The position numbers were made by a program, and so were the translations under genes. A stretch of 64,000 nucleotides of DNA, taken from Firmicutes bacterium HGW-Firmicutes-4 (lineage in GTDB: Bacteria; Bacillota; Clostridia; Eubacteriales; Eubacteriaceae). The stretch spans positions 1 to 64,000 of the forward strand of contig PGZR01000001.1 of NCBI GenBank assembly GCA_002841405.1. The letters are read 5' to 3'. Of this stretch, positions 5,302 to 63,162 are shown piece by piece (within the stretch, counting starts at the first letter, position 1; every line of letters begins with the position of its first letter). Below the pieces are notes generated by a model. That model searched no databases, was not told the origin of the DNA, and saw only the letters and a program-made list of their open reading frames with translations.

Positions 5302-5690
5302 GACCGCTTATTTCGCAGGTTGTCGTCAGGCTGGCCTTAATCTTTTTAATAAACGCTTGCATTATTATTCAGCATGTTGTATCATACCCACATGGTGGCA
5401 TCGTCAAGAGCTGCACATGATTAACGCTCAAACAAACTTTAATGCTTTATTATTTAATGCATTAAATAATAATCAATTAAAAACCTGCTCTAATCCCTGG
5501 TGATAGAGACTGAATAAAACCATGCCGTTTTGCATTTTTATAATGTAATGATAGGTCTTTTTGCAGTTGTTTATTTTCAGTGCAGAGGACCTTTTTTCTT
5601 TGCGCAAATTTAATCAGCCACAGGTTTGCGTGACATGTGTTTCACTGCTCTTTGCGGTCATAACCAAATACTACTTAACAGGTGAAATGC
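5302..5690 (+). promoter_or_regulatory. Intergenic leader region of the pantothenate cluster
   Basis: About 390 bases without a convincing gene. It contains a perfect 26-bp palindrome (described separately) and a TATAAT at about 5540-5545 that may be the -10 of the pan cluster, though no good -35 is obvious. Short open frames here lack ribosome binding sites. Confidence 0.35.
5447..5472. repeat. Perfect 26-bp AT-rich palindrome
   Basis: The arms 5447-5459 and 5460-5472 are exact reverse complements with no loop (centre TGCA). It is followed by no T-run long enough for a clear terminator. It could be an operator for a dimeric repressor or a weak terminator of the CorA unit. Confidence 0.6.
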
Positions 5691-6548
5691 ATGAAAATCG
5701 GATTTATTGGCGCCGGCAAAGTCGGCACCGCCCTGGGCATTTTTTTCAAACATAATAGTCTTTCCCTAACAGGTTACCTAAGCCGCAGCGAAACCTCGTC
5801 CCAATACGCGGCAAAAGCAACTGACTCCGCTGTTTTCTTCGACCTTCCCAGCCTTGTTACCGCAAGTGAAGTGATTTTTGTCACCACCGGGGATGATCAA
5901 ATTTCTGAGGTTATCAACCAACTCCTCCAAACCGCCTGCTTAACCGGGCATCATACGCTTGTCCATACCAGCGGCGCCCTGTCCACCGATCTTTTTGATC
6001 CGCTGTTAGCATCAGGGTGCGGTTTATGTTCACTTCACCCAATCATGAGTTTTTCTGATCCCTTCACTGCGTCTCAAAATTTAATGCAAACGGTTTTTAC
6101 CCTGGAAGGCAATGAAAAAGGTCGGGCTACTGCGCAAAAAATCCTTGCGATCACCGGTAATCCCTATTCCGTCATTGATAAAGACGATAAGGTTCTCTAC
6201 CATACCGCTGCCTGCATCCTTTCCAACTATCTGGTGACCCTGATAGATTCGGGTTTTGAACTGCTAAAGACCACCGGAATTGCCGCCGATGAAATCACCA
6301 GAGCCTTTATGCCGCTGATCACCGCCACCCTGGGCAACATCGAAAGATCCGGAACCGTTAACGCTCTCACCGGCCCGCTGGTCCGGGGGGATGAAAACAC
6401 TATCGGCAAACACATCGAAGCGATAAAAAAACAAACCCCGGAATTTCTGTCGCTCTACCAGACCATGGGCTTAGCCACCATTGAGATGATCAAAGACAAA
6501 CGAATTGATGCCGAAACCTATGAACATTTAGAAAACAAACTAAAATAA
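5691..6548 (+). CDS. Rossmann-like/DUF2520 dehydrogenase, candidate ketopantoate reductase
   Basis: The N-terminal Rossmann fold begins GFIGAGKVGTAL (NADP glycine loop) and the C-terminal half is the helical DUF2520 domain (LSNYLVTLIDSGFELL, then LTGPLVRGDENTIGKHIEA). The family is annotated as an oxidoreductase of unknown substrate. Its place directly in front of panB-panC-panD, with no panE in the cluster, makes a ketopantoate reductase role likely. I recall that PanG-type ketopantoate reductases, unrelated to PanE by close sequence, have been described in Firmicutes and Francisella. An AGGTGA ribosome binding site lies 6 bases before ATG 5691; a GTG at 5682 overlaps that site and is unlikely. 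panB follows 21 bases after the stop. Confidence 0.75.
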   Translation: MKIGFIGAGKVGTALGIFFKHNSLSLTGYLSRSETSSQYAAKATDSAVFFDLPSLVTASEVIFVTTGDDQISEVINQLLQTACLTGHHTLVHTSGALSTDLFDPLLASGCGLCSLHPIMSFSDPFTASQNLMQTVFTLEGNEKGRATAQKILAITGNPYSVIDKDDKVLYHTAACILSNYLVTLIDSGFELLKTTGIAADEITRAFMPLITATLGNIERSGTVNALTGPLVRGDENTIGKHIEAIKKQTPEFLSLYQTMGLATIEMIKDKRIDAETYEHLENKLK

Positions 6549-6569: not shown

Positions 6570-7406
6570 ATGAAAAACAAATTTACTGTCAGCTCTTTTT
6601 TACAAGCCAAAGCAAACAAAGAAAAAATCACCATGCTAACGGCCTACGATTATTCAATGGCCAAAATCGTCAACGATGCCGGCATCGATACGATTCTGGT
6701 GGGCGATTCTCTGGGTATGGTAGTCCAGGGTTATGAATCCACTCTGGAAGTGACCATGGACGACATGGTATACCACTGCCGCGCCGTTGCCCGGGGTGCC
6801 GACAACGCCCTGGTCGTCGGCGACATGCCATTTTTATCCTATCACATTTCGGTAGAAGACGCCGTTCGCAATGCCGGCCGGTTGATTCAGGAAGGCAAAG
6901 CCCACGCTGTCAAGCTTGAAGGCGGCGTGGACCAGGTTGCCAATGTCAAAGCCATTGTCAAGGCGCAAATCCCGGTCATGGGCCATATCGGTCTGACGCC
7001 CCAATCCGTTAACATGTTCGGCGGATTTAAGGTTCAGGGTAAAGATACTGCTCAGGCCCAGAAAGTCATTGATGATGCCCTGGCGCTGGAAGCGGCGGGC
7101 GTCTTTGCTATTGTCCTGGAAGGGATTCCTGAAAAACTGGCAACCCTGATTACTGAAAAAATCTCCATACCCACCATCGGTATCGGTGCCGGTCGCTACT
7201 GCGACGGTCAGGTTCTGGTCATTCATGACCTGCTGGGCATGTATTCAGGTCAATCGCCCAAGTTCTCCAAGCGTTATGCGGCTCTGAATGAAACCATTAA
7301 GGATTCTGTCACCGCCTATGTCACCGAGGTGAAGACTGCGAAGTTCCCGGAAGAAAAACATACCTTCACCATTGATGATGCAGTTATCGCCGCCTTGCAA
7401 CAATAA
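6570..7406 (+). CDS. panB: 3-Methyl-2-oxobutanoate hydroxymethyltransferase
   Basis: Transfers the hydroxymethyl group of methylene-THF to 2-ketoisovalerate, giving ketopantoate, the first step of pantothenate synthesis. The 278 residues are full length. Seen are the opening [12 protein letters not shown], Mg-binding VGDSLGMV near 45-52, [20 protein letters not shown], and the catalytic Glu in FAIVLEGIP followed by [16 protein letters not shown]. The C-terminus [10 protein letters not shown] is typical. A good AAAGGAAG ribosome binding site lies upstream. It is followed by panC 4 bases after the stop. Confidence 0.96.
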
Positions 7407-7410
7407 GACC

Positions 7411-8253
7411 ATGAAGATTGCCAAAACAATAACGGAACTTAAGACCTGTCTTGAGGAAATCGGCAAGGATAAAACCATCGGCTTTGTCCCCACCATGGGC
7501 TATCTTCACGACGGTCATCTTTCGCTGATCAATGAAGCCCAAAGTCATAATGATGTGACAGTCGTGAGTATTTTTGTCAATCCCACCCAGTTTGCCCCGG
7601 GCGAGGATCTGGACGCCTACCCCCGGGATTTTGACCAGGATTCACTACTTGCTGAAGCTGCCGGAACCGATCTCCTGTTTTTTCCAGATCCGGGCGATAT
7701 CTATCCGGCGGGTGCCTCTACTTTTGTTGAAGTGGAAGGCGAGAGCACCAGGAAACTCTGCGGTCAGTCCCGGCCTACTCATTTTAAAGGAGTGACCACC
7801 GTAGTCAACATTTTATTCAACCTGATCCAGCCAACCAGAGCCTATTTTGGCCAGAAAGATGCCCAACAGGTGGTGGTAATTAAAAAAATGATCCGGGATT
7901 TACATCTGCCGGTTCAGCTTGTAGTCTGCCCGATTGTCAGGGAAGCCGATGGTTTGGCCCTGAGCTCCCGAAATGTGTTTCTAAATCCGGAGCAACGAAA
8001 CCAGGCCCTGGTTCTCAGCCAGTCACTGACTGCCGCCAAAGCGCTTTACCGAGCCGGTGAAGGCCGGGTTAAAATCCTAAAAGATCAGATTATCAGCCAC
8101 ATCAGCAACATGCCACTGGCGGTTATTGATTACGTTGATATTCTTGATTTTAAAACCCTGGCCGACATTGAAAACATCACCTCGCCGGCTCTGGTGGCGG
8201 TGGCAGTTCGCTTTGGAAGCACCCGACTGATTGATAATATCATTTTAGATTAA
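7411..8253 (+). CDS. panC: Pantothenate synthetase
   Basis: Condenses pantoate and beta-alanine with ATP through a pantoyl-adenylate. The 280-residue product carries the nucleotide-binding PTMGYLHDGHLSLI (HIGH-like), FVNPTQF, the Q-rich FGQKDAQQ and the KMSKS-like SSRN segment. The ATG at 7411 gives the family's usual N-terminus (MKIAKTITELK). An open frame runs back into panB but has no ribosome binding site and no family similarity. The gene itself has only a weak ribosome binding site, so it probably depends on translation through panB, 4 bases upstream. It requires beta-alanine, which the neighbouring panD product may be unable to make. Confidence 0.95.
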   Translation: MKIAKTITELKTCLEEIGKDKTIGFVPTMGYLHDGHLSLINEAQSHNDVTVVSIFVNPTQFAPGEDLDAYPRDFDQDSLLAEAAGTDLLFFPDPGDIYPAGASTFVEVEGESTRKLCGQSRPTHFKGVTTVVNILFNLIQPTRAYFGQKDAQQVVVIKKMIRDLHLPVQLVVCPIVREADGLALSSRNVFLNPEQRNQALVLSQSLTAAKALYRAGEGRVKILKDQIISHISNMPLAVIDYVDILDFKTLADIENITSPALVAVAVRFGSTRLIDNIILD

Positions 8254-8263: not shown

Positions 8264-8602
8264 ATGTATATCACCCTATTTAAGTCAAAGCTCCATCGGG
8301 CAACCGTCACTGAAGCTAAACAGGCCGATATTCTTCCCGGTGAAAAGGTTCAGGTGGTGGATGTGAATAACGGCCAGCGCTTTGAAACCTATACCATTGT
8401 GGGTGAGCGCGGCAGCGGTATTATCTGTGTCAATGGCGCCGCGGCCCGGTTGGTTCACACCGGCGATCAGGTGATCATCATCGCCTATGCCATGATGGAA
8501 CGGCAGGAAGCTCTGGATTTTAAGCCCCGGGTCCTGATTCTCGATGATGAAAATCATGTAACCGCACTTAAGGACCATGAAGTTCATGGTCAGAGCCATT
8601 AG
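8264..8602 (+). CDS. panD: Aspartate 1-decarboxylase homologue lacking the cleavage segment
   Basis: PanD makes beta-alanine from aspartate with a pyruvoyl group formed by self-cleavage at a Gly-Ser bond in a segment of the form YxGSxxID. The product here is clearly Pan[13 protein letters not shown] at residues 7-18, [23 protein letters not shown] and the [12 protein letters not shown] strand all match. However, the protein goes straight from TVTEAKQ to [11 protein letters not shown]. About 15 residues are absent, including the Gly-Ser site and the tyrosine just before it. The frame stays open and the total is 112 rather than about 127 residues. The ribosome binding site AGAGG is good. As read, it cannot form the pyruvoyl cofactor. 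Confidence 0.88.
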
Positions 8603-8695: not shown

Positions 8696-10270
8696 TTATA
8701 ATCCCATTAAGACTTCAACCTGATGATTTACTTTGTCATTTACCAGATTGATAACATTTCTGGTTGAGATGATCCCATCTACCGAAATGGTTTTGACGCC
8801 TTTATTGGCTCCATCGGGGTTTTTTATATTGATCTGATAGTTTGTTTCTTGATAGTTATAGTTGATCTGATATTCTTTCATTTTGCCGGGAATGCATGGA
8901 TCAATGACAATGGTCTCGCCATTTTTCTGGAAGCCCAAAATATATTCCAACCCCGCCCGGTACATCCAGCCGGCCGCCCCGGTATACCAGGTCCAGCCAC
9001 CTCTGCCGGTATGAGGATAAGTGGAATAAACATCGGCAGCAAACACATAGGGTTCCACCTTATAGCGGGTGTAGTCGCGCATGTTGGTGGTATGGTTAAT
9101 CGGGTTAATCAGTTCAAACAGTTCCCAGGCTTTATCGCCATCCCCCATTTTAGCAAAGGCAATGATGGCCCAGGCCGCGGCATGGGTATATTGTCCGCCA
9201 TTTTCCCGGACGCCTGGGATATAACCCTTAATGTATCCCGGCTCCAGCTCGGACTTGTCAAAAGGTGGCGTCAGCAATTTGATCAGACCGTCTTCACGAC
9301 TGACCAGATAGTCTTCCAGTGAATTCATCGCCATACGTGAACGTTCGCTTTCCCCGGCTCCGGAAATTACCGACCAGCTTTGAGCAATGGAGTCGATTTT
9401 GCACTCGCTGTTCCCAGCCGACCCCAAAACATCGCCGTTGTCGAAATAAGCCCGGCGATACCAACTGCCGTCCCAGGCCGTTTTTTCGATGGCCGCCATG
9501 ATCTCCGCTTTGACGCTTTGATACTTTATGGCCCGTTCCAGGTCACCTTTTTCTTTACAAATGGGAATAAATAGGTCCAGATTGGCAATCAGGAACCAAC
9601 CTAACCAGACGCTTTCGCCCCGACCTTTATTACCGACGGTGTTCATCCCATCATTCCAATCCCCGGAACCCATCAGCGGCAGTCCATGTTTTCCAAATTT
9701 CAGAGAAATTTCAAGTGCCCGCAGACAATGCTCATATAAGGAAGCCGAGGTCTCAATTTTCCAGGGGCGGCCGCATTTTTCATCTTCAAATTCGCTTAAT
9801 TCCGGCTCTTCGATAAAGTTTACTTGTTCTTCCAGAATTTGCCGGTCTCCCGTGATGCGAATATATTCGGCAGTGACATAGGGCAACCATAATCGATCAT
9901 CGGAAAAATGAGTCCGAGTTCCCAAACCCATTGGTTCGTGCCACCAATGCTGAACATCACCTTGCTGATACTGGTGACTGGCATGGAGCAGGATTTGCGT
10001 CCGGGCGATTTCTGGCCATATGTTGGTAATCGATAAGGCATCCTGGAGCTGATCGCGGAACCCAAATGCGCCACCGGCCTGATAAAATCCTGATCTTCCC
10101 CATAGCCGGCAGGAAATAACCTGGTATTGCAGCCATCCATTGACCATCAGATTAATAGAATCCGTTGCTGTTTCCACCTGAATCACTCCCAGCTTACTTT
10201 TCCAGAAACCGATGACTTCATTTAAGGCATCCTGAACATTTCGCAGCTCACGATACTTCTGGGTTAGCAC
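8696..10270 (-). CDS. NdvB-like cyclic beta-1,2-glucan synthase, C-terminal fragment (GH94 domain)
   Basis: This is the last 524 residues of a roughly 2930-residue protein. It carries most of the (alpha/alpha)6 catalytic part of a GH94 phosphorylase-type domain: NGWLQYQVISCRLWGRSGFYQAGGAFGFRDQLQD, the acid motif GSGDWNDGMN, GQYTHAAAW and GRGGWTWYTGAAGWMYRA. In NdvB this domain trims and sets the chain length of the glucan. The frame immediately upstream continues to read sensibly (LGANERKDIAFLLG) into the end of the preceding fragment. The join needs one extra base in the C4 run at 10333-10336. The ATG/GTG used here is internal, so this is not a real gene start. Confidence 0.85.
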   Translation of the reverse strand: MLTQKYRELRNVQDALNEVIGFWKSKLGVIQVETATDSINLMVNGWLQYQVISCRLWGRSGFYQAGGAFGFRDQLQDALSITNIWPEIARTQILLHASHQYQQGDVQHWWHEPMGLGTRTHFSDDRLWLPYVTAEYIRITGDRQILEEQVNFIEEPELSEFEDEKCGRPWKIETSASLYEHCLRALEISLKFGKHGLPLMGSGDWNDGMNTVGNKGRGESVWLGWFLIANLDLFIPICKEKGDLERAIKYQSVKAEIMAAIEKTAWDGSWYRRAYFDNGDVLGSAGNSECKIDSIAQSWSVISGAGESERSRMAMNSLEDYLVSREDGLIKLLTPPFDKSELEPGYIKGYIPGVRENGGQYTHAAAWAIIAFAKMGDGDKAWELFELINPINHTTNMRDYTRYKVEPYVFAADVYSTYPHTGRGGWTWYTGAAGWMYRAGLEYILGFQKNGETIVIDPCIPGKMKEYQINYNYQETNYQINIKNPDGANKGVKTISVDGIISTRNVINLVNDKVNHQVEVLMGL

Positions 10271-10299
10271 ATTGACCTCATCATAATTATTGGCAGCGC

Positions 10300-13200
10300 C
10301 TAAAAGGAATGCGATATCTTTCCGCTCATTCGCCCCAGGGTAACCTTGACCTGAATCGCCCCGCAGGGATCAAAGCCAGCACCTAATGCCCCGTCAAGAC
10401 TTATATCGGCCAGGCTTTCCGGACAGGACATATCGCCATTTCCGAAAAAGGCTTTGCGATCACTGGTAACGGACCGCTGCGGGATTGATGCATCGATGAA
10501 TAGGATTTCTCCCGGAAACCCTTCATTATAGGGGTTTCTGATTAACAGCGCTCCGGATTCATCCTGATCAGCATTGATGTGCATGGCCGTGGCCTGATCA
10601 CTAACCCCAAGTACCGGCCGGATATAGTAGGTCAGGGTTACGTGTCGTTCCTGATTTGATTCATTTTTTAAATTAATCAGACTGATTTTTACGGCATCGG
10701 TTGTCGGCACAAACTGAATCATGCGTTGTTTGATGCCATGACTGGCATGTTCAAAATTGGTATAGCCAAAACCATGCTTAATCGTATAATCTTCCTCTTC
10801 CCGGATTGGTAGTGGGGTAATGGTCCAGGTTTCTCCGGTATCCCCATCACCCAGATAAATCACTTCTCCGGGCGGATCTGAGACCACATCATTTGACCAC
10901 GGCGTCAGTTTATTTTCCCGGCTGTTTTGATACCAACTATAGCCGGAGCCTGATTCCGAAACCATAAAGCCAAAGTTCTGATTGGCTATCACATTTACCC
11001 ATGGTGCTGGGGTATTTTCACCATCTTCCAGATGGATGATATACTCACTACCGTCTTTTTTAAATCCGCCAATGCCATTGTTGTACAAGCGTTCCGGTTC
11101 ATCATTAGGTGACACCGGATAATTTATGGGCTTGCTCAACATCACTATTTTTTCAGGACTCAATCTGGTTGTCGGTGTTTCTCGCACCCCTTCCAGCTGT
11201 TCTCGGAGAGTTCCCTTGCCGCCTTTTAAGATTACTCGGGCAACGGCATAGAGCAGCGGTATGTCTAGCACTGCGATTTTATTTTTTTCCAGAATAAAGA
11301 CATCTTCACTGGTATTTAAAATGTCATGGGTTTGTTTAGACAATACAATATCAGAAATTAGGGCATACAGGGGCAGTGAATAAGAATATTCCTCTTCACT
11401 TAAGATCACCAGATCCACGTTTAGCCCAATCAGTCGCCAGTATTCGTGGGCTTTTAAAACCTCGACCAATAGCTTGACCTGATCGACTTTACTTAGATCC
11501 ATTAGCACAATTGGGTTGTCACCGGAGATGCCATATTTCCATAAGGCCGACTGACCCTGAGTGTTTTCGCGGATTATTTCCTGACTCATCATCTTAACAG
11601 GGCTCATAAAAACAAGATGAGAGATCATATCCTGATAAAGCTCAGACTCGTCTGCATCCAGATTGAGGTATCGGGATTCTACCTGGCTCCTGGTTAAGGC
11701 CAGTTTGAAAGCACCTTCCACCGCACTGGGGGTTTTATATTTATCGATCAAATGAAGCATCGATTCTTTGCTTTCGCAGAAGGCGGTGACAAAGGAAAAC
11801 TGGGCGGTTTTACCGGCCTCGATGATCACCTTGATACGGGTACTCATGACTGGATCGAGCACTGGTCCGCTGGTGCCAGACAGCGGTTTATCCTGAGTGA
11901 TGACGACCGGATTTTTGGGATTATTACCCCGGCCGATCAACTGCATCCGATCGGTTTCGTACTGAATTTCGCCCTCGATATTGCCTTTGGTGACAACCGC
12001 ATTGGCCAGCCACATGTTTTTATCGCTGTCTGATCGGGGCCGCCGGTTGGCAATCAGGCATTTTCTACTATGTTCTATTTCCGTTTCAACGAAAAGATTG
12101 CCAAAAGCCGGATGAGCAATATCCCCAGCCTGGGATGCCATAACCAGTTCAAAATAGCTGGTTAATTCCAGGATGCAGGATTTTTTGCCGTTATTTTTCA
12201 GGCTGATCCGTCTAATTTCGACGTTGTCACCAGATGCTACAACCACCTCGGTTTTTGTCTCAATGTCGCCATCGGTGCGCGTGAAGGTGGCTTTGTCGGT
12301 GGTAAAAACCACCTCATATTTATCTGGTTTGTTATTCAGCGGGGCATAGGCAGCCGACCAGATGGCTTTGCTGCTTAAATTTTTCACATAGAAAAACATT
12401 CCGTATTGATCCAGGGTGCTATCTTCACGCCAGCGGGTTACGGCTGACATTTTACTTTTACTGTAACCGGTTCCCCGATCGGTAATCATTACCGAATAAT
12501 TGCCATTGGAAAGGATATGAGCTTTGGGAAGATTGGCATTGGGCTTTAGATAACGTCGTATGGCACTTCTTTCTCTGGTTATCTTGCCTTTGTAGGGCAC
12601 CAGTTTTTCCTTGGTTCCCTTGGTAAAGATCAGGTCGGAAGATACTTTTTCCTGAAGCAGCAATCGGGCTGCATGGATTTCCGGGTCATTATGGAAACGG
12701 GTCTGCATGATATTGTCATTGATACAATTATTCAGTGCCATTAAACTCATGCCCTGATGGTGAGCCATAAAACTTTTTACCACCGCCCGCTTTGTCTCAA
12801 AACCCAGCCGCTCCGGGGTATAATCGGCGGCTTCATAAAAACCGTAGGGTCCTTCCAGACCATCGGCTTTAAGCCGTTTAATATTCTTAATCGCTGCTTC
12901 CGGATCAATCATCAGTGCCAGGAAGGTGGCATAGGGCGCGGTCACGGCATCTTCAATTAAGCCCCGTTTAAGCCCCAACCAGGGCACCCCAATGGCCTTG
13001 TATTTGTAATCGTGGTGTTTATCCATGGCATTATAACCGGATTCCGATGTGCCCCAGGGCATTTCCCGCTGATTTCCGTATTTCATCTGACTCTTAATAA
13101 CAAAAGAATAGGTTTCATCCAGCAAGGTGTTCTGATAGCTTTTCATAATCAAAAGTGGCATTAAATATTCAAACATGGTGCCAGTCCAGGAAATCAGACC

Positions 13201-16140
13201 TTTGTAATGATCTACCGTCGTCAGTCCGCGGCCCAGTTTAAACCAATGGGACGCCGGGATCTTACCCTTAGCAATACAGATATAGCTGGTTTGACGGGCC
13301 TCTGAGGCCAGCAGGTCATAAAATGAATTGGTGAGCTTATTGTCTTCCAGATTAAAGCCGATACTGAAGAGCTCCTTCTTCTTGTCATAGAGGGGCAGAA
13401 ATTCCATCGCAGCGATAAGGGTATCAATCCGTTTGAGCAGTCGGTTGTACTGGTCGACAAAATTTCGGGTCGCAGTAGCGGCTGTGTTTAGAGTTTCGCT
13501 GGTTTCAGCCAGCCATGCCAGTAGCTCACCGTAATCATCCTGATCCCATTTTTTGACCGCCAATGCCAGTCGGTCGGCAATGGTGGCGGTTTCCTGATGC
13601 AGCTTTGGTAAATCAATCAAATCCGCATTATCCACTAAGCGGTTTTTGAGGCTGTTAATATCTGTGAATACCGCATCACTGGCAGCTTCTTTTTTGGCCG
13701 CTGACATATCCATCAAGCCGTCTGGGCTTTTATTAAGCAAATAAACGCCCGGCAGGAAGTTTACCATTTCGGCTCTAAACAGAGTAATCATCTCGATAAT
13801 TTTTGTTTTCCAGACCCCTTCATCGATATCTGTCAACGCATCTGACTTCATCAGGTTCTCCAGTGTTTGATGCCAAGCCATTGAATCCGCCGTTGTTTCC
13901 AAGCTGTCTCGCGAAGGGATTTTCCCATAGACAGCATAATCGGTTTTTCCGACACAATGGAGGGTGTCCCGGATTCCACTTGAAAACCGGGGATCAATCA
14001 GCGGGCTGTGAAGGTAGTCTGTAAGTCCTTGTTTCAGGGTGACCAGGTAGCAGAGAAAATTCCCGCTGTCGACTGTTGAAATATAGGCCGGTCGCAGCGG
14101 TTTTAGGGTCAGGGTATCGTACCAGTTAAGCAGATGACCCTGCCATTTTTCCAGGGCTTCAATGGTGCTAACGGTTTTATCAATGAGCGCCAGCATCCGC
14201 CCGGTGCTAATATAGCCAAAGTCTCTGGCGGTCAGTGGTGCCAGCAGACCCAGCCCGATATTGGTGGGCGATGTCCGCTGAGCAATTCCTCGAGGTGGGT
14301 CGGCCTGATAATTGTCGGGAATCAGGTAATGACTTTTAGCATTTGAAAAGTCCTCAAAATAACGCCAGGTTTTGCGGGTGATTCGACCGAGTTCAAGAAG
14401 CTCACTATCAGATAGTAAAAGCTCCTTTTCCTGGTGATCCCTGCTGATAAACCAGGCAATAACGGGACTACTGACCCACAAGGCAAAGAAAAACAGGCCG
14501 AGCAACAGTGCTTCCGGTTTAAAAAGCAGGGCCAGGATGACTGGTATCGGTGCCTGAAGTAGCGCAGCCTTCATGGTAAAAACATAACTGACCAGTGAAT
14601 TTTTCTGGAATTTTTCAGTATCATCCGCAGTTACCCATTCCAGCAGGTTTTTCCGGGTAACAAAAACCCGGGTCAGAGTTACCATGATCGCATGGCTCAT
14701 CAGCCAGGCCTGATAAGGCAAAAAGATCAGCACCAGCAAAAACTGCATCAGTACTGCTTTGAGGCCAAACATCACCGGCATGTACCGCTTGATCCGGTCG
14801 TTACCAATCCGGGCCGTAACAAGAAAACCGACGATCCCCATCACCAATGGAAATACCTGCGGCAGCAGGAAAAAACCTAACCAGAAAAAAACACTTCCGG
14901 GAAGAATTGAAAAACTCAAGAAGACTAATAACATCAGAGCCGGCGGTACCAGACTTCTTCTTAAATTATCAAACATTTTCCATTTGGACAGTCGCGAAAG
15001 AGGATTGAAGATTTTATCATGACGACGGTCAAAAATTTTCCGAAACAGAATCGGCACTAATTGCCAGTCCCCCCGGACCCAACGATGCAGCCGGGCTGAA
15101 AACGAATTATATTTTGACGGATAGGAATCTACCAGCTTTAGATCGGTGACCAGACCAGTTCGCACATACGAGCCCTCCAGTAGATCATGACTGAGAATGG
15201 TGTTATCAGGGATGGCATCGCGCATGATGGTCTGAAAGACCGCTAAATCATATATGCCCTTGCCGACAAAAATTCCTTCGCCAAAAAGATCCTGATAGAC
15301 ATCAGAAATGGCAGTGGCATAAGGATCAATGCCTTCCTGACCAGTGAAGATCCGGGAAAAAAGCGACTTGTTGGAACTTTCATTTTCTACTTCAATTCTA
15401 GGCTGCATCAAGCCATAGCCTTCCACTACCACTCCCCGTTCGCTGTCGATAACCGGTCGGTTCAGCGGGTGCGCCATGGTGGCAATCATTTTTTTTGCCA
15501 TCCCCATCGGCAGAATCGTATCGCTGTCCAGGGTGATCACATATTTGATATGGTCAAAGGGTGGTTTTTTAGCTGACACATAGGCAAAACTGGTATCGCC
15601 GGTGCCGAGAATCAGGTCATTGAATTCCATCAACGCCCCTCTTTTTCGTTCCCATCCAAACCATTTGTCATTCTTTTCATTGTATTGACTGTCGCGATGG
15701 AAAAAATAAAACTTATCGGTACCCACCGGGGCATATTTCTGATTAAGCTCGCTGATGCCGGCCAGAGCGGTTTCGATAATCCCGGGATCAGCCTTCATGG
15801 CTGATTTGTCGGCATCGCTGAATGCTCCAACCAGGGCAAAGTAAAGATTCTCTTCGCGGTTGGAAAGATAATGACTTTCCAGACCAGCCAGCAATTCCGT
15901 CACCCGTTTCTGATCAGAAAGCAGGGTTGGCACCGCAACAATGGTGCTCATGCTTTCGGGAATTCCCTCTCTTAATTGAAGTCGTGGAAAAAAAGCTGGC
16001 TTCAGGGCATTGCAAACAATCCAGTTGACCGCTTCCACAGCAATTTCCGATGCCGGGATCAGTACGGCTACAATAGCCAGAACCGAAAATAGTAACAGAT
16101 GTGAGGGCGCCGTAAAATTAGAGTAACGGATAGCCACCAA
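10300..16140 (-). CDS. NdvB-like cyclic beta-1,2-glucan synthase, central fragment (GT2-like plus GH94 N-terminal regions)
   Basis: The 1946 residues contain hydrophobic membrane segments near the start and around 430-590. Between them is a processive glycosyltransferase domain with the metal-binding aspartates in ITLDSDTILP, the SHDLLEGSYVRTGLV segment and the RWVRGDWQ motif. Further on are two copies of carbohydrate-binding/GH94-linked regions, with MPWGTSESGYNAMDKHHDYKYKA and SFMAHHQGMSLMALN. The product links UDP-glucose into a beta-1,2-glucan in NdvB proteins, at the inner membrane. The fragment's first residues MVAIRYSNF are in the middle of a membrane helix, and its last residues after VTLGR are out of frame. 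Both ends are frameshift junctions. Confidence 0.87.
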   Translation of the reverse strand: MVAIRYSNFTAPSHLLLFSVLAIVAVLIPASEIAVEAVNWIVCNALKPAFFPRLQLREGIPESMSTIVAVPTLLSDQKRVTELLAGLESHYLSNREENLYFALVGAFSDADKSAMKADPGIIETALAGISELNQKYAPVGTDKFYFFHRDSQYNEKNDKWFGWERKRGALMEFNDLILGTGDTSFAYVSAKKPPFDHIKYVITLDSDTILPMGMAKKMIATMAHPLNRPVIDSERGVVVEGYGLMQPRIEVENESSNKSLFSRIFTGQEGIDPYATAISDVYQDLFGEGIFVGKGIYDLAVFQTIMRDAIPDNTILSHDLLEGSYVRTGLVTDLKLVDSYPSKYNSFSARLHRWVRGDWQLVPILFRKIFDRRHDKIFNPLSRLSKWKMFDNLRRSLVPPALMLLVFLSFSILPGSVFFWLGFFLLPQVFPLVMGIVGFLVTARIGNDRIKRYMPVMFGLKAVLMQFLLVLIFLPYQAWLMSHAIMVTLTRVFVTRKNLLEWVTADDTEKFQKNSLVSYVFTMKAALLQAPIPVILALLFKPEALLLGLFFFALWVSSPVIAWFISRDHQEKELLLSDSELLELGRITRKTWRYFEDFSNAKSHYLIPDNYQADPPRGIAQRTSPTNIGLGLLAPLTARDFGYISTGRMLALIDKTVSTIEALEKWQGHLLNWYDTLTLKPLRPAYISTVDSGNFLCYLVTLKQGLTDYLHSPLIDPRFSSGIRDTLHCVGKTDYAVYGKIPSRDSLETTADSMAWHQTLENLMKSDALTDIDEGVWKTKIIEMITLFRAEMVNFLPGVYLLNKSPDGLMDMSAAKKEAASDAVFTDINSLKNRLVDNADLIDLPKLHQETATIADRLALAVKKWDQDDYGELLAWLAETSETLNTAATATRNFVDQYNRLLKRIDTLIAAMEFLPLYDKKKELFSIGFNLEDNKLTNSFYDLLASEARQTSYICIAKGKIPASHWFKLGRGLTTVDHYKGLISWTGTMFEYLMPLLIMKSYQNTLLDETYSFVIKSQMKYGNQREMPWGTSESGYNAMDKHHDYKYKAIGVPWLGLKRGLIEDAVTAPYATFLALMIDPEAAIKNIKRLKADGLEGPYGFYEAADYTPERLGFETKRAVVKSFMAHHQGMSLMALNNCINDNIMQTRFHNDPEIHAARLLLQEKVSSDLIFTKGTKEKLVPYKGKITRERSAIRRYLKPNANLPKAHILSNGNYSVMITDRGTGYSKSKMSAVTRWREDSTLDQYGMFFYVKNLSSKAIWSAAYAPLNNKPDKYEVVFTTDKATFTRTDGDIETKTEVVVASGDNVEIRRISLKNNGKKSCILELTSYFELVMASQAGDIAHPAFGNLFVETEIEHSRKCLIANRRPRSDSDKNMWLANAVVTKGNIEGEIQYETDRMQLIGRGNNPKNPVVITQDKPLSGTSGPVLDPVMSTRIKVIIEAGKTAQFSFVTAFCESKESMLHLIDKYKTPSAVEGAFKLALTRSQVESRYLNLDADESELYQDMISHLVFMSPVKMMSQEIIRENTQGQSALWKYGISGDNPIVLMDLSKVDQVKLLVEVLKAHEYWRLIGLNVDLVILSEEEYSYSLPLYALISDIVLSKQTHDILNTSEDVFILEKNKIAVLDIPLLYAVARVILKGGKGTLREQLEGVRETPTTRLSPEKIVMLSKPINYPVSPNDEPERLYNNGIGGFKKDGSEYIIHLEDGENTPAPWVNVIANQNFGFMVSESGSGYSWYQNSRENKLTPWSNDVVSDPPGEVIYLGDGDTGETWTITPLPIREEEDYTIKHGFGYTNFEHASHGIKQRMIQFVPTTDAVKISLINLKNESNQERHVTLTYYIRPVLGVSDQATAMHINADQDESGALLIRNPYNEGFPGEILFIDASIPQRSVTSDRKAFFGNGDMSCPESLADISLDGALGAGFDPCGAIQVKVTLGRMSGKISHSF

Positions 16141-17486
16141 TAAAAAAGCAGGGTGATCACACCCATGGAACCCAAATAAAGGACGCCCGGATTTTTTATC
16201 CCCATGCTGTCTGCTTTTGGTCTAAAGCTGTTGATTTTTTTTTCTTTGCTTTCCAGACTTCTGAGACCCTTGCCAATCAGGTAATAGCCGACATGCCAGG
16301 TTTTCTGGACAGCAGGATTTTCCAACTGGGTTTGATCTCGGCCGGTATAGGCTGCTTCAGCAAACTGAACCACCTCTTTAGCCAGATAAATTTCTGATAC
16401 CCCAAAGCCCAGGGCCAGTTCTTCGACTTTGGTTCGGTAGTAGCTGCGGGTGGCAATATCCATCAGTGGATAGGTTCCGTCAGGATCCTGTTTTAAAATC
16501 TGTTCGATCATACTTACCGATTCAAAGAGTTCGGACCAATCCAGGGAAGCGAAAAAATGAATACTGGTAATGGTATTTCCCATCGAAATGGTATTAACAG
16601 ATTGGGTTCCATGTTCTTTTTGGGTGATTTCCTCGGTCGTGGCGCCAAGCTTATTTAAGTTTTCGTCCATGGTGCGAAGGACTTCCACATAACTGCGACC
16701 GGAACGTCGGAGCCGATAGAATAAATGATCAACAAAGGATGGGTTGGCTTCGTCCAGACTTTGGAGACTGTCTTCAAACAGTTTGATTGTTTTCTTAGTA
16801 TCGTCGTCTTCGTTTTCCAGCCATTTGGTAAATATCTTATCCGCCTTATGCCACTGGTTCTGGGTGTTTTTTATTTCTTCACAGAGAACCCGGATGTTTT
16901 CAATCAGAGCCAGGGTAATCATCATTGGCAGCGCAACAATTTCCCGATCAAAAAGCACGGCATGAGACTGATAGGCCTTTAAGTAGTCGGTTAGGATCTT
17001 TTCGTCGATCTGACCATCGGTATGGGCGACAAGCTCCACGGCCACTGCAAAAATACGGATCTGTCCCTTGAGTGGGCCGGACTTAAGAATTGGCAAGCGG
17101 TTGTAAGCGGCTTTCTTTATGTCCCGTCGCATTCCTTTAACCTGTTTTTCAATGATATAGAAGTTGTCCAGCAGCCACTCTGAAGCCGGTGGTACAGCCG
17201 CCTTTTTTTGAAGATCTTCACTCAGGTCCCGATATACATTTAAAATGAATCGATAGTTTTCATTCATCCTGACAATGGGCGATTTGACCGATCTTTTCTT
17301 GATTGATACGGCATGCTCGATGGCAATTCTTTTGGCATGTCCTTCCAATTCCTCACTTGACAGCGATGCATCGCGCATGTTAAGTCGCGGTGATTTCCCC
17401 GATTTTATCAAAAATATCCATAATAAAAACAAGGTACAGCCAATCAGCACCGTGGCCTCAATTAATAATCTTAAATAAGCGTTCAT
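16068..17486 (-). CDS. NdvB-like cyclic beta-1,2-glucan synthase, N-terminal fragment
   Basis: The true start of the large glucan synthase gene: MNAYLRLLIEATVLIG is a membrane anchor, followed by a long soluble helical domain (GT84-associated region of NdvB) with WLLDNFYIIEKQV and NRLPILKSGPLKG. It ends in a second membrane helix (LYLGSMGVITLLF) where the reading frame is lost. In a T6/A6 run at 16142-16147 one extra base would continue the helix as LLFLLVAIRYSNF into the central fragment. With this and the 10333-10336 correction, 17486 to 8696 becomes one frame of 2931 codons. GAAAGG ribosome binding site upstream. A 14-bp palindrome, 17541-17554, lies in the promoter region. Confidence 0.85.
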   Translation of the reverse strand: MNAYLRLLIEATVLIGCTLFLLWIFLIKSGKSPRLNMRDASLSSEELEGHAKRIAIEHAVSIKKRSVKSPIVRMNENYRFILNVYRDLSEDLQKKAAVPPASEWLLDNFYIIEKQVKGMRRDIKKAAYNRLPILKSGPLKGQIRIFAVAVELVAHTDGQIDEKILTDYLKAYQSHAVLFDREIVALPMMITLALIENIRVLCEEIKNTQNQWHKADKIFTKWLENEDDDTKKTIKLFEDSLQSLDEANPSFVDHLFYRLRRSGRSYVEVLRTMDENLNKLGATTEEITQKEHGTQSVNTISMGNTITSIHFFASLDWSELFESVSMIEQILKQDPDGTYPLMDIATRSYYRTKVEELALGFGVSEIYLAKEVVQFAEAAYTGRDQTQLENPAVQKTWHVGYYLIGKGLRSLESKEKKINSFRPKADSMGIKNPGVLYLGSMGVITLLFYWWLSVTLILRRPHICYYFRFWLL

Positions 17487-46858: not shown

Positions 46859-49800
46859 TTACTTATTTCTACCTCGATGGGGAAGACCAGGGTGAGGACG
46901 ACTTGGACCATCACTGTCAGACAGCGGAATCGTCGAAAAATGAGCTTCCGCATCGATCGATTCGGTGGCATCAAAGGCCCAGCTGGCAGCGGTGCTGACG
47001 CTCGTTCCGCCCACAAACCAACCGTCAAATTGATACCCGGTATTGGCAACGGCCATTAACGTGACGGCCTCTTCCTGGCCGAATGATCCGCCTCCAGAAA
47101 CCGTTCCTCCCTGTTCAGGTACCGCTTTTGCGGTGATGCTGTATTTACCCTGGACAAAATGGGCCGTATAGGTTTTACTGCCATTAACCGTCGTTTTAAA
47201 GACCGGCGAGATCGCCCCTTTTATCCGGCCGTTTTCATCGGACCAGTAGCCAAAGATATAACCAAGCTCCGTGGGGATGGCAGTTAAGGTTGCCGTATCC
47301 CCGTAAGCATAGGTTTGCTGCCCGGTGATATAACCGGCTCCGTGGGGATCCACATTGGCGCTGATATCATGGGTTGTTTTTTCAAACACTGCCGTTAAGG
47401 TCGTATCTTCATAAATTCTGAATGGGTAACTTCTGGCATTTGAAAGTTTTAAACCGTTCTGGTTGACCCAATGGAGGAATTTGTAACCCGGGTAGGCCAC
47501 TGCATAAGCCATTACATATTGACCCGATTCGACGGTCTTTTCGCCGGCAATCAGATCACCAACCAGGAGCGCTTTACCTTGTAACACCGATTGTTCAGTG
47601 ACCGAAAGTTTTACCGTTGCATTTGATTTGAAATGAGCGATCAGAACGGTGTCTCCGGTAACGGTAAAGGTGTAGACCGCCTCCGGACTGACGACATTCC
47701 CTTTAACATCGGTCCAGTTCGTAAATTCATAGCCATAACCGGGGATGGCTTCTACTGTAGTCTGATTCCCAGCGGTGGCATCCAGATGGTAGCCTCTGGC
47801 GATATTGCCACGAAGGTACTCTTCGGCCAGCGGAATAATCAGGGCCCCTTTAGTATTTTTAAAGGTGGCGGAAATTGTGATGGGCGCCAGATTAATCCAG
47901 TCTTCATTTAAGGTGAAGGTATAATCCCCGTCTGATGAAATACAAGACTGCGTTCCCTGGGCATCGGTTATCATCCAACCGGCAAAGCTATAGCCGTCTT
48001 TGGCAGTAGCCGATAAATTCACGGTGTCTCCAAAATTGTAATAGCCGTTCCCGGCGGCGTTACCACCGTCGCCAACAGTCAACTCGACCTGATATACATT
48101 GGGTGTAAAGACCGCAGTTAGGTTAGTGTCTTTTGTCAGCGTAATGGCATCACTACTTAAGGTTGAGACCTGTTCTCCGGTGTCAGCATCCATCCAGGCA
48201 GTAAAGGAATAGCCTGGCAAGGCAACCGCTGCAATACTGGCCTGATCGGCCTCAGAGGATGGATTGTAGCCGCCCTCACCAGATAAGGTTCCACCGGTAA
48301 CCGGGTCAGCCATTAAAGTCAGGACAAATTCTTCGTTACTGAAATCGGCTTCCAGATTGCGGTCGGCGGTTGCTGTGAAGCTATAGTTGGGTGTCTGACT
48401 CACGCATTGGCCGTTTTCAAACCACCCCACAAATTGTGAACCGCTGGCGGGTGAAGCCTTAAGTGAAACCACGGCGCCTGCCGGATAGACCTCATCCGAA
48501 TCGCTATTAGCAACCGTCCCCAGGGCCGGATCATTAACGGTGGTGGTCATGGTATAGGTTTGGGGGGAGAAACTGGCAGTCAGGTCTGCCTCCGCCCGCA
48601 GGGTAAAGACATAAACAGCATCGGAACTCAACCGGTTTCCAGTGGCATCCATAAAGCCATTAAAAATATACCCTTCTTCCGGGGTGGCCGTTAAGGTGAC
48701 TGCCGTTCCATAATCATAGGTTCCCGTTCCGGATACCGTGCCGCCGCCATCTGGAGTGATACCAACATTCACGGCAACTTGTTCAAGCTTGAATTTGGCA
48801 AAAAGCACTCGCGAATAATAGGCCACAAAATCATATTCCGGGGTATCACAGACTTTTATTCCGGCAATATCATACCAGCCCACAAATTCATAGCCGGTAA
48901 ATGGCACGGCGTTGAGATAAAATTCATCCTTTGTTTCAGAAGTCTGGTAAACCTTATAAACCCGTCCGCCTTCAAGGGGGTCCGGAAAAGCCAGTGCCAT
49001 GATTCCTTTGTGAGAAAAAGCGGCGACCAGGGTCCGGTCTTTTGCAGCGGTAAAGGTATAGGCATCCTTCTTCTCGACTTCTTTGCCGTTTTCATACCAG
49101 CCTTCAAACTCATAGCCTTTCTTTTCTTCGGCTTTTAAGGTGACCGACTCGCCATTTGTAATGACCAGTCCAGTTTCTGGTATATCTTTATCGTCTGAAG
49201 TCACTGTACCGCCCTCCACATAATCGCATTGGACTTGAATGGTGACCGCCGGTTCGGCTTCAAAATTGGCAGTTAATGTTGTATTTTCAGTGACATCAAA
49301 AGTATAATCGGCAGTTTTGGTGACCACGGCACTGTTTTCATCGGTCCAGTTGGCAAAGGAGTAGCCCTTTTCTATAACTGCACTCACGGTTACCGAATCC
49401 GACAGCTTATAGGGACTGGTTCCGGTTTGGGTAACCGTTCCCTGGGTTTCGTCAGCTGATTTTGCCGTCACGGTAAAGGCATTTTCCTGATAACTGGCAA
49501 TATAGCTGACATCTGCGGTCAAGTCAAAGGTATAGGTTTCTGAAGTAGAAGCCGGCACGTCATCCGTCAATGCGCTAAACCAGCCTTTAAAGATATAATT
49601 ATCTGTCTCCGCATCATCCAGGGTTGCGGTGATGGTATGTTCACCCATTTGGGATAATCCATTTCCGGTCAAGGTCACTAGCGACTCCATTGTGGTCGGA
49701 TCAGCCGTCAGGGCTACATTGGCACCTAATTCAAATTGGGCAGTGAGACTATGATCGGCTGCAACCGCCGTCAGGGTATAGCTTTCGTCCTCGGAAACCT

Positions 49801-52800
49801 GGGCTTCACCTTCATACCAGCCATCAAAAACATAGCCTTCATTTGGCGTTGCTGTGACAGTCGCATCATTGCCAACCGTGACCTGTTGAGACGGGCTAAC
49901 CGTTCCCCCCTCTTCCGGGGTGGCACTGGTGGTGATGGTATATTGTTCACTATAACTGGCAATATAACTGGTGTCTGCGGTTAGGTTAAAGGTGTAGCTT
50001 TCTTCGGTTGACACCGGTTCCAGGTCAGCCAGATTCACATACCAACCATTAAAGACATAATTTTCGGTTTCGGTATCGATTAAGGTGGCGGTAATCGTAT
50101 GTTCCCCGGTTTGGGATAATCCGTTTCCAGTAAAGGTCACCAGGGTATCCATCGCCACCGGATCTGCCGTCAGGGTGACATTGAATCCCGCTTCAAACTG
50201 AGCAGTGAGACTATGATCAGCGGCCACTGCTTCCAGGGTATAGGTTTCTTCGGTTGATACCTGGACGCCATTTTCATACCAGCCGTCAAAGAGATAACCC
50301 TCATTGGCGGTGGCTGTCACGGTGGCCGTTCCGCCGGCGATCACCTGCTCGGTTGGGGTAACCGTCCCGCCTTCTGCTGGCGTGGCACTGGTGGTAATGG
50401 TGTACTGTTCACTATAACTGGCAATGTAACTGGTGTCTGCGGTTATGTTGAAGGTATAGGTTTCATCGGCTGACACTGGTGCCGGGTCAGTCAGATTGAC
50501 ATACCAGCCATTAAAGACATAATTTTCAGCTTCGGCACCCAATAGGGCAGCGGTGATGGTATGTTCTCCGGCTTTGGATAATCCATTGCCGGTAAAAGTC
50601 ACCAGCGTATCCATCGCCACCGGATCAGCAATCAGAGTTACCTCAAATCCTGCTTCAAATTGGGCGGTAAGATTGTGATCAGCCGCCACCGCTTCAAGAG
50701 TATAGGATTCTTCTGTAGAAACCTGAACCCCATTTTCATACCAGCCGTTAAAGAGATAACCTTCATTAGGAGTGGCCGTCACGATGGCCGTTTTACCACT
50801 GACAACTTTTTCTGTGGGGGTAATTGTTCCCCCAATTTCCGGGGTGGCACTGGTGGTAATCGTGAATTCCTGTTTGAAGTGAGCGGTTAAAACGGAACCT
50901 TCGTCGGCTTCATCAACCAGAAATGAAATACTCTTTGCCTCCGGATCATCAATTACCACGGCACCCTCACTGCTCCAGTTTTCAAAAACCCAGCCCGGGT
51001 TGGCGGTGGCTTTTAAGACCGCCATTTCACCAACGCGATATGTTTCGCCGCCAATTGCCGTTCCTGCGTCTACCGGCGAAGCGGCGGCGGTAATCAGGAT
51101 ATCCGTTTTATCATCGGGATTATCGGGATCTGGGTCCGGATCCGGCGGATTATGATCAACGACGCCACCAGCCACTTCACCCAGATCTTCTAATGCTACC
51201 TCTGCTAAATCCAAAGCACCGTCAGCCAACAGCTCATCACCGCCAAAATAGATGGCCGCAGCGATACCGGCGGCAATGGCGGCAGCCGTAGCAGCGGCGG
51301 CGGCGATTTTCACGATTCTTTGGGCTTCACTGCCACTACTTTCTTTATAAACCGCCACAACGGTTGTATTTCCGGTCATATAGAGAGTCAGTGTGCCTGC
51401 CTTGGTATTGGAGGTCACACTTTTCAAGGTATTGCCGTTGCTGTCTTCAAAATGGGAGAAAGCATACCCGGCCTGATTGCCCTGGGAGATGGTCACCAGC
51501 GTTCCATAGGGATAATATCCCGATGGGGCTGCCTGGCCGCCGCCTTTGGGACTGACATTCAAGGTCAGGTAACAGGCATTCGGCGAATAATTGGCCTGAA
51601 TCGGGGGTGCATCGATTCCAGGTTGTCCCGCGACCGTGTAGTTAAAGCTGGTTTTCTTACTCAGGGTGGTACTGCCCTGAGTCCAATTTTCAAAACTGTA
51701 ATTAGCATCCACGGTGCTGCTGATATTAACGGATTCCCCAACATTTCGATAACCGCTGCCGGATACCTCACCGCCGTTTAAATCTACGCCGGGAATGGTC
51801 TGATCAGCAACGTAGGCATTTTCCACCAAAATTCCAATGTCCTTTAAATGCAGCCTGGCCACCAGCGGGGTGCTATCCAGTAGCTGATAGTTGAAGGACG
51901 GCGCACTGCTGACTAAAATAGGGGTTTCCTCATCGGTATACCAACCATCAAAAACCAGATTGGGATCCACCGTTCCGTAGTTAAGGGTAATGGAATCCTT
52001 GAAATTCCCGGTAACGCCTGAATTAGGAAACTGGGTTACCTGGGGAACCACCCCGGGCAGCAGGTTTCGTTGATAATTATCCGTCCACTCGGCTGAAACC
52101 GGAACCGTTACCGTGTATTCCTGGACAAAGTCATACTGAATTGCCAGCGACTCGGTGATGGCGTCGATGGTATAAACTGCATCATAGGAGATCAGGGTGC
52201 CCGTGCTATCCAGATAATCTTTAAATATCACATTCGGCATGGTTTGATTGGCGGTGGCGGTTAAGACCACCTTATCGCCGTACTCTGGGATGGTTCCAGC
52301 TGGTGCCAATACCCCATTTTCATAGACAGCCATGGCCACGCTGCCATAAACAGACCGGCCTGGATCCACTGGGGTCAGAGTTACCGGGCATTGTAATACA
52401 TCAAAGTTGGCCGTGTAAATGACATCATTTGCCACATTCACCACCAATTCCGAAGTGGTTATAACTGTATCATCCAGATTATTGGTCCAGTTGACAAATT
52501 CAAAACCGGTATTAGGGATGGCCGTGAGGGTTGCCTGGGTCCGATAGGCATAGGTTCCGCCTCCGTTGACGGTGCCCATCGTCGTTGGGTTTGCCGCAGC
52601 GCCAATGCTATTCTGGCTGGTGTGGAATTGGGCGGTCAGGGTATCATTTCCCGTCACTGTAACATCAAAGGTACTGTCCATCGAAACGATGTCTCCCAGA
52701 GCATTGACCCAGCCATCAAAGACATAGTTAGCATCTGGGGTGGCTACGGCTGTGATCACATCCCCATAAAAAGGACCATCGGTCGGGTAATTGGTCCAGG

Positions 52801-55800
52801 CGGCGGTTCCACCGCCGCTTGCTGCGGTATTAATACCCACGGTATAGGCAATCGGAGCAAAATTTGCCTGAAGTGACATATTGGCATCCGGTTGCAAAAT
52901 CCAGTTGGCATCGGTGCTTAAAACAGCTCCGGGCTGAGGATCTGCCAGGGCATCGGTCCAACTCACAAAAGTGTATCCCATATCCGGGGTTGCCGTTACG
53001 GTTAGCGATTGCCCATAAAGTACTGAAGCCTGAGACTGGCTCACGGTTCCGCCGGGGGTTTGGCCGGCTGCTACAACCGTAAATGTTTTCGGGGTATAGT
53101 GGGCCACATAGGTTACCACCAGATCCGGTCCGATGGTAACATCAAATGTATCATCCGGATAGACAATTCCAGCGGCATCGGTCCAATTGGTAAAATCGTA
53201 ATTGGGCGAGGTTTCAGCCGAAATGGTTTTGGTCGTATTTTTAGGGCCAATCAGAATATCTGTCTTTTTCGCCGCCGCGGGATCGCCTTGGGTGATAATC
53301 GCGCCGTAATCCGTAACAAAGACAGCCACCAGATTGGTCGCTTGTGTTACGGTATAATTAAAATCTGCGGTTTTACTGATCAGCTTGCCATCCTCAAACC
53401 AGCCAAGAAACAGAATTTCTGTATTGGTGGTATTGGCCGCCATATTTAGAACCGTTCCATAGCTGTAGATGTCCTTTGCGGGACTCACTGATACCTGATC
53501 TTCAATGGATTTCTGAGCGACCATTGAAATATTCACCAGATAAGTTTCCGGTGCAAAAACCGCCGTGTACTGCCCCTGGCTGGCTTCACTGGCGGTAAAG
53601 GTATATTGGGGATTGGTACTCACGGCTAAATCCGAATCCCCCTGGGTCCACCGAATAAAATTATAATTGGCATTGGGAATGGCCGTTAAGGTCACACTTG
53701 CGCCATCCTCAAAAGTACCGCCACCAGCGACGGTTCCGCCTGTTGCTGGAGAAGGCGTAACCGTAATGGGATACTGCACCGCCGAAAAATTAGCCGTTAA
53801 CGCCTGGTTGCCAGTAATCGTGATGCTGGCATCAGGCTTGTTGGATACGGTGTTCCCTGATCCATCCACCCAACCGCTAAAAACATAGCCGTCCGCCGGG
53901 GAGGCCTGAATATTTACCACTTGACCGTAAACCAGATTGGTTCCCCCGCTACTGACGGTTCCGCCATTTGTCGGATTGGCTGTCAGACTCAGGGTATACC
54001 CTTGCTGGGAAAAATTGGCAATCAGGCGAGTATTCTTGCTGGGCTCAAAAACGTAGGTCTGATCTGTACTGACGCTTTGACCGGTATCCCCATCGGTCCA
54101 GCCGGTAAAACTGTAGCCATTGGCTGGTGTAGCCACAACGGTGGCGGTTTTGCCATAGGTAATGGAAGTTGCCGAGGTTACCTGAGCGGTTCCTCCCGGA
54201 GTTGGGGTTGCCGCCACCGAGATGGTGAATGTTTTGGGGGTTACATTGGCAATAAAAGTCTGCAACCCTTTTTGCACCTGCACCGTGAGATTAGGATCAG
54301 TACTCACAACCTTACCGGCACTGTTGGTCCAGTTAATGAAATCATAGGTATCCGAGGAACCGTTAAAACTCAGGTTGGTTCCAATCGGTTGAACTTCAAT
54401 ATCCACGTTTCTTGATGAAAACGGGTTTCCCAGAACAATCACCGAACCCCAATTGGTACCAAAAACAGCATTAATCAATACGGGTTCAGTGACCGTATAA
54501 GAAAAGGCCGGCGATTTAGATAATAAGATGCCGTTTGCATACCAGCCTGAGAACGTTACCCCGGAATCGGTACTGCCGGCACTCAAAGCTAACACCGTTC
54601 CACTGGCATAGTTACCGCTTACCGGGGTTACGGTAATGGTCTGAAGAGCGGCCGGTGAGGCAATGGTTGAAATTTTCACCGGAATCTGAGTTGCCTGAAA
54701 CACCGCTGCATAGATCCCGGCGGTAGCATCGCTGGCAGTAAATGCGTAACTGGCCTTCTTACTGACAACCGCCTGGGATTCGCTATTAATCCAATTAACA
54801 AAGGTATAACCGGCGGTCGGGGTCGCAGTCAGGGTCACTGTCGCTCCGCTGACATAAGTGCCATCGCCACTCACCGTGCCGCCACTGGTCGGAGTTCCTG
54901 AAACCTGAATCACCACGGTATCCGGAATAAAGCTGGCCGTATAGGTTATGTTATCCGTCACCGGGATATTCAGAGTTGCACTGGTTCCCACCACCGCATT
55001 GTTTTGATCGGTCCATTGGCTGAACTTATAGCCGGAATCCGGGGTGGCCGTGAGCGTTACCTTTGATCCATTGGCGACATTCCCCCCACCGGTTACAGTT
55101 CCGTTGCCATCACTGACCACCGCAACACTACACATTGTCGGCTCAAAAATCATTTGATAGGTACCGGATTCCGTTACCGGCACATTTACCGGCTGGGTAT
55201 ATGGTGTGTAGGAGCTGTAATTATTGGGGTCAGTAAAATAATAACCATTACATTCATAGCCGGGGTTAGGCATGGCATATAAATAAATACTATCCAGCAG
55301 GCTATATGAACCACTTTCATTAAACACAGTTCCTCTGGTTGGGTCGGAGCTTTCCACAACAATATTATAAGCCCCTTCGAAAGAAAAGGAGATAATTACG
55401 TCATCATGTAAAATAAAATCGGCGGTTGGTTGATTATCAACTTCCTGACTGGTGCCATCAGCAAAGGCTGCTGTAATACTAGTAACCTTAAAACCATTAA
55501 CGGGTGTCACATTAATATTTAATGTGGATCCGGTGGGATAAGCGCCATTCCCGGTTTGTCCATTTGCTCCGCTGAAGGTTACATTACCTAAAGTGGGGTT
55601 GAGGTCTTCCACCTGAACCTCTACGGTGCTGACCGGCGGTGGTGTAACCGCATAAAAGGTCACTGAAATGACGGTATCATCAGTTAAGTTAAACGTAGTT
55701 GGTGTCAGCGGGGTTTCATAGATCAGTCCCCCCATTGATGCCGAAATCAGATAAACCGCATAGCCGGGGTTAGCTACGGCATCAACTTTTAGAACAGATC

Positions 55801-60796: not shown

Positions 60797-62146
60797 TTAT
60801 AGATATTGTTTCACTGCTTCAATTAATTCCTGCTTGCTGGGAATAATCGATGACCACTGCAGTTTCCCATTTATATAAGTGGAAGGCAAATGTTGAACCC
60901 CCATTTTTTTGGTTCGGGCAATATCCACTTTATTGGTATATTTATATTCTTTAATCTCAATCTGATCGCCAAACTCTTCTTCAGCCAGGTAGATGCCCTT
61001 GACCATGTAGGTACAGGCCGCACATGTGGCTGAGTCCAGGGTAAAGATTTCAATCAGGGGTTTCACCAGTTTGTCATAATCCGGCAGTTCCACTGGGATA
61101 TCTTCATCGACGGCCTCATAGTTTTCGATCATTTTTCGGACTGTTTCGGTTTGCTTAATCGCCTGAACGGTGGCCACGGTATTATCGATGGGAACATTGT
61201 AAGGCATGTCACAACCGGGGCTGACAATCAGATTATGATGGTCAATCTGATCTAACATCTCAACAACAAATTTCATATTGTCCTGCTGATTACCGAACAG
61301 CAACGTGGTTGTCAGGGGGATATTTCCACCGATGGTGATATTATACTGATCCGTGATTTTTTTGGCTTCGTAAATATTGACATTCTCATCAATGGAGATT
61401 CCGTCGGGATTGGTTCGGCACATCACCTCCATCTGAACCGTCGCATCGCCGCAAACAAAGAAACTGCTTAATGCCCCTTTGCTGCGGATAAAATCAAAGG
61501 CTGCCTGGAAGGGTTCCAGAAATAGTGCCTCAATTGATTTCGGTGAAATCTGGCTGATCAGCGGATCCACCAGGGCGATCACATCCATGCCCGCATCGAT
61601 GTAGTAGGAGGACATGGCATTACAGACTTCCACGCAGAATCCCACCAGTTCTTTGACAAACTCCGGATACATCACAATGTCCATAAAGAACTCGCTGCCG
61701 CGGATGTGGGAGGCCAGGGTGACCGGTCCGCAAATCAGACCATACAGGGCGGTATCTTCCCCGACCGCCGCTTTCACCCGTTTCATCACATCCACCACCA
61801 TCGGTATGCGACCTTCGGTAATTTTGGGAATCTTGCATTTACAAGGTACCTTCAACTCACCGGCATAGGGATGACTCATCACCGATGGTGGATTATCTTC
61901 GGCCCATAACAACTCACAACCGAGAATCTCAGCTTCAATTTGAAGATCGAAGATCACCGGCATCCCATCCGGGGTATAAAGCTTATGAACTTCCATTAGT
62001 GAATCAAATAATTTATCACCGTCGGTTAATACTTCCCGGGCGGTATAACCTTTCAGAAAACCTGCATGGACTCCACTGAAAGGAACCCAAGGTACCTCGT
62101 CAACCATTTCGTGTCTTAATGTCTTTATAATTAGATCTTTTCCCAT
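60797..62146 (-). CDS. UroD-type corrinoid methyltransferase fused to a thioredoxin-like domain
   Basis: 449 residues. Residues 1-345 have the uroporphyrinogen-decarboxylase/MtaA fold: VPWVPFSGVHAGFL, YGLICGPVTLA, ALVDPLISQISP, and cysteines C232 (FFVCGDAT) and C312 (SPGCDMPYN), which match two zinc-ligand positions of MtaA-type methyltransferases; the third, a His two before C232, is Phe230. Residues 362-449 form a thioredoxin-like domain with C375-AA-C378 (CAAC). This end may be a redox partner. Likely a methyl donor:corrinoid or corrinoid:acceptor transferase. GAGG ribosome binding site. Confidence 0.85.
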   Translation of the reverse strand: MGKDLIIKTLRHEMVDEVPWVPFSGVHAGFLKGYTAREVLTDGDKLFDSLMEVHKLYTPDGMPVIFDLQIEAEILGCELLWAEDNPPSVMSHPYAGELKVPCKCKIPKITEGRIPMVVDVMKRVKAAVGEDTALYGLICGPVTLASHIRGSEFFMDIVMYPEFVKELVGFCVEVCNAMSSYYIDAGMDVIALVDPLISQISPKSIEALFLEPFQAAFDFIRSKGALSSFFVCGDATVQMEVMCRTNPDGISIDENVNIYEAKKITDQYNITIGGNIPLTTTLLFGNQQDNMKFVVEMLDQIDHHNLIVSPGCDMPYNVPIDNTVATVQAIKQTETVRKMIENYEAVDEDIPVELPDYDKLVKPLIEIFTLDSATCAACTYMVKGIYLAEEEFGDQIEIKEYKYTNKVDIARTKKMGVQHLPSTYINGKLQWSSIIPSKQELIEAVKQYL

Positions 62147-62241
62147 TTCTTACCTCTTTTAGTTCTAAATTTGTTTTTCATTGTCTAAATACTACGCAGC
62201 AATTAATAATGCTGGCCGAAATTCTTAACAAAGTCGCTATT

Positions 62242-63126: not shown

Positions 63127-63162
63127 ATTTGCCTCGTTTTTTCTAAATCCATATTTTTAAAA

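Follow-up and report, generated by a model that had tools for sequence, protein, structure and literature searches.

PanD and its unprocessed forms

In the published chemistry of PanD, the protein is self-cleaved between Gly24 and Ser25; without Ser25 no pyruvoyl group is formed and therefore no aspartate is decarboxylated. Activation of the Escherichia coli enzyme is abolished in the S25A and T57V mutants (PMC4410942; PMC3496974). S25A (PDB 1pqe) and other unprocessed E. coli mutants carry small changes, and they fold and crystallise. Pantothenate genes are also found without panD: Rhizobium etli has panB and panC, no panD, and obtains beta-alanine through a beta-alanine synthase (PMC7142369).

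The window, i.e., the whole 64,000-nt stretch of contig PGZR01000001.1 of Firmicutes bacterium HGW-Firmicutes-4 analysed here, carries at 8264..8602 (+) a panD gene from which 15 internal codons are missing in frame. Its product shares with the PanD family (TIGR00223, PF02261) the sequence, the panB-panC-panD gene order, and the equivalents of Lys9, Arg54, Thr57, Tyr58, and Asn72 (K9, R39, T42, Y43, and N57 in the window protein), but it is devoid of residues 19-33, and thus of the cleavage site and of a pyruvoyl precursor. Like S25A it has no serine for the cofactor; in contrast to the E. coli mutants, it loses 15 residues of the fold.

The reading judged probable is that this panD is a loss-of-function allele which arose by one recent 45-nt deletion and entails a requirement for beta-alanine (or pantothenate). 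A single event would have removed codons 19-33, with the Gly24-Ser25 self-cleavage site and Tyr22, leaving the rest of panD intact, and in the absence of Ser25 both pyruvoyl formation and aspartate decarboxylation would be lost. The deletion is taken to be real in the organism and young, and the cell would import beta-alanine or pantothenate, the former presumably being enough since panB and panC look functional.

The panD gene and the 45-nt deletion

The panD frame starts with ATG, ends with TAG, and encodes 112 residues with no internal stop. The product scores 130.4 bits with the TIGR00223 (panD) profile (curated cut-off 106) and 131.2 bits with PF02261 (cut-off 25); being above both family cut-offs and encoded in a panB-panC-panD operon, it is PanD by descent. 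In a whole-genome search with TIGR00223, it aligned only from profile position 34 onward, and all other Acetobacterium PanD proteins from position 1.

Alignment of the DNA with that of 11 relatives reveals one clean gap of 45 nt (15 codons) in the window panD. The missing nucleotides, which encode NLNYVGSITIDENLL in A. dehalogenans, correspond to residues 19-33 of PanD of A. dehalogenans DSM 11527 and include Tyr22, Gly24, and Ser25. The first-pass annotation had reported that about 15 residues, among them the Gly-Ser bond and the neighbouring tyrosine, were absent from an otherwise open frame, and in all these points it proved exact. At the junction the window reads GAAGCT joined to AAACAGGC, and the junction codon (AAA, Lys19) lies at 8318..8320 (+). 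This first codon past the gap, codon 34 in the relative, specifies Lys in the window and Glu in A. dehalogenans, a replacement explained as a by-product of the deletion junction.

The breakpoints are uncertain by 1 nt, and no direct repeat beyond this single nucleotide of microhomology was found at the deletion ends; there is therefore no repeat to mislead a k-mer assembler, and a repeat-mediated misassembly was rejected. When about 59 kb of window ORFs were compared with four relatives, the gap was seen against each of them, and no other large in-frame gap was common to the four. The missing panD segment was found neither elsewhere in the 64-kb window nor in the assembly, so that its relocation was rejected, and so was a second panD copy, since the assembly contains a single panD match.

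The explanation that survives best after a genuine deletion, although it is unlikely, is that the gap is an artefact of assembly or consensus calling, or that the assembler picked a minority strain variant, the usual panD being intact. In favour of it speak the state of the assembly (a draft of 225 contigs, 86% complete), the restriction of the gap to this one draft genome, and two 1-nt frame breaks within about 8 kb, in the neighbouring giant gene, which indicate either more decay or sequence errors in the contig and in this respect also count against the deletion reading. Opposed to it are the breakpoints devoid of repeats, the lack of any further large in-frame gap that recurs with every relative in the ORFs compared, the absence of a second panD fragment from the assembly, and the gap length, an exact multiple of three. 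The last point cuts both ways, as decay of a dead gene need not give an in-frame length, which arises by chance in one case in three.

Occurrence among relatives

The Acetobacterium sample comprised 19 genomes, 13 of which have panD, the window genome included. The full panD segment is present in all 12 of the other panD-bearing genomes, and the Y-x-G-S motif is kept in 80 of 80 homologues retrieved from a collection of species-level genomes. Relatives with the full segment had been named in the first-pass annotation as an argument against the deletion; they do exist among the related species, but the deletion is not thereby false, and the comparison shows only that it is private to the window genome.

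Of the named relatives found, A. dehalogenans is the nearest (ca. 81-91% nucleotide identity over aligned blocks, mostly 86-90%) and not A. woodii, which we take to need pantothenate. Both panC and panD are missing from six of the 19 Acetobacterium genomes, among them G017, presumed to be that of A. woodii DSM 1030. A pantothenate need of that organism would therefore stem from loss of the pathway and not from the deletion seen in the window, so the tie to the vitamin need of A. woodii drawn in the first-pass annotation fails, and an A. woodii origin with its vitamin need was rejected as an explanation. None of the papers available to the literature search was found to state a pantothenate requirement of Acetobacterium; one media recipe includes pantothenate, which proves nothing.

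Elsewhere in the same order panD is broken in other ways. In G021 (L164:134-487) codon 9 of panD is a stop codon and Gly-Ser is replaced by Arg-Cys, panC being intact, and in G046 (L162:5131-5425) panD lacks about 30 residues in frame, farther downstream, and panC is shortened. These two genomes resemble the window genome in that panD is inactivated and other pan genes or their remnants persist, but their lesions differ from that of the window and represent independent events. Together with the six genomes devoid of panC and panD they indicate that the pathway is dispensable in the group; loss of panD and its pathway has thus occurred repeatedly in this genus and order, a pattern which the window deletion fits.

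The window and most congeners have a spacing of 10 nt between panC and panD; the two genes are separated by ca. 280 nt of additional sequence in A. dehalogenans and A. wieringae CSMB_175 (L021 and L023, upstream of position 6001).

Pathway context and the predicted requirement

Directly upstream of panD lie panC, coding for pantoate-beta-alanine ligase (7411..8253, +; 280 aa from the ATG at 7411), and panB, coding for ketopantoate hydroxymethyltransferase (6570..7406, +), and both look intact. Ketopantoate reductase candidates are present, and a Rossmann/DUF2520 dehydrogenase encoded next to panB on its upstream side (5682..6548, +) is proposed for this function from position and gene order only. 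The predicted need for pantothenate or beta-alanine, put forward in the first-pass annotation, is kept as the likeliest outcome; since panB and panC look intact it can be sharpened, rescue being expected from beta-alanine as well as from pantothenate.

The same annotation held that synthesis of beta-alanine should be lost. The available assembly yielded no other route, but it covers only 86% of the genome: a pyridoxal-type decarboxylase (PF00282) is missing from it, and dihydropyrimidinase is represented only by sub-threshold relatives, none over the cut-off, both being weak negatives at this completeness. The missing 14% may hold an intact panD or a different source of beta-alanine, which counts against the requirement. 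It is accordingly conceivable, if rather improbable and less probable than an artefact, that panD is dead and the organism is not auxotrophic, another beta-alanine enzyme being encoded in the missing part or being of another kind. The R. etli precedent and the retention of panB and panC in the window genome agree with such an enzyme; against it stand the two negatives and the nearly complete genome of A. dehalogenans, which has neither the PF00282 decarboxylase nor a dihydropyrimidinase over the cut-off and has an intact PanD.

Predicted effect on the enzyme and probable age of the deletion

By analogy with the unactivated E. coli S25A and T57V mutants, the window product has almost certainly lost its decarboxylase activity, and the proposal that it cannot self-process by known PanD chemistry is supported. 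AlphaFold2, run on both proteins with the same set of sequences, gave pLDDT 91 and pTM 0.84 for A. dehalogenans PanD and pLDDT 70 and pTM 0.63 for the window protein. The window model is devoid of strand 17-19, strand 26-29, and helix 30-35 of the A. dehalogenans model, and further strands are unassigned. It still matches PanD structures, with TM-scores of about 0.75-0.82 to precursor forms, and a partly folded product is thus possible according to the model, which says nothing for activity.

The dN/dS ratio of the window panD compared with that of A. dehalogenans is 0.12. Outside the gap, the window branch, delimited with outgroups, has accumulated ca. 4 synonymous and 3 non-synonymous changes besides the junction codon. 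These counts are small; so few changes would fit a deletion late on the branch, and they do not demonstrate continued selection on the shortened panD.

A shortened PanD kept for a pyruvoyl-free function, e.g., the binding of another subunit or ligand, is highly improbable: the open frame, the conserved downstream part, and the low dN/dS could be cited for it, but the ratio is explained by constraint predating a recent deletion, the fold model drops in confidence, no second genome carries the shortened form, and the damaged panD genes elsewhere in the order carry a stop or a different deletion. Hardly any credence is given either to a PanD that is kept and still made as a non-catalytic protein, beta-alanine coming from a hitherto unknown route or from partners.

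If the loss-of-function deletion is real, a vitamin pathway has been caught early in its loss, with one deletion ending beta-alanine synthesis and the other genes looking functional. Pathway loss of this sort is an already known kind of event, and the case is ordinary in kind; its use lies in the warning that a family score does not reveal the loss of an active site. A broken PanD passes the curated cut-off, and annotation by score only would call the genome beta-alanine-competent. A check for the presence of Y-x-G-S could be used for metabolic predictions in general.

Other features of the window

Downstream of panD, one-base deletions near 10334 and 16142 divide a giant cyclic-glucan-synthase-like gene with GH94 and glucoamylase domains (8696-17486, -) into three ORFs. 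In the relative G002 its frame is uninterrupted over 2941 codons, A. dehalogenans has no such gene in the syntenic stretch, and the E21 copy is broken differently. The frame breaks reflect either gene decay or sequence errors. Frame errors across the whole contig were rejected, the single-base breaks that stood out being confined to this one gene. An ORF of 3051 codons (46859-56014, -) lies in a stretch that has no counterpart in the syntenic region of A. dehalogenans.

A second panB-type gene, 49% identical to panB, is located at 63877-64734 in a cluster which occupies 60797-64000 (-) of the window and continues to G000:C97:68183. The cluster also codes for a URO-D-type (MtaA-like) protein, an EamA transporter, a corrinoid-binding protein, an octopine-dehydrogenase-like reductase, and a BCCT transporter. 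This second type of panB is also present in G005 and G017, both without panC and panD, and the enzyme, run backwards, might supply the Wood-Ljungdahl pathway with one-carbon units.
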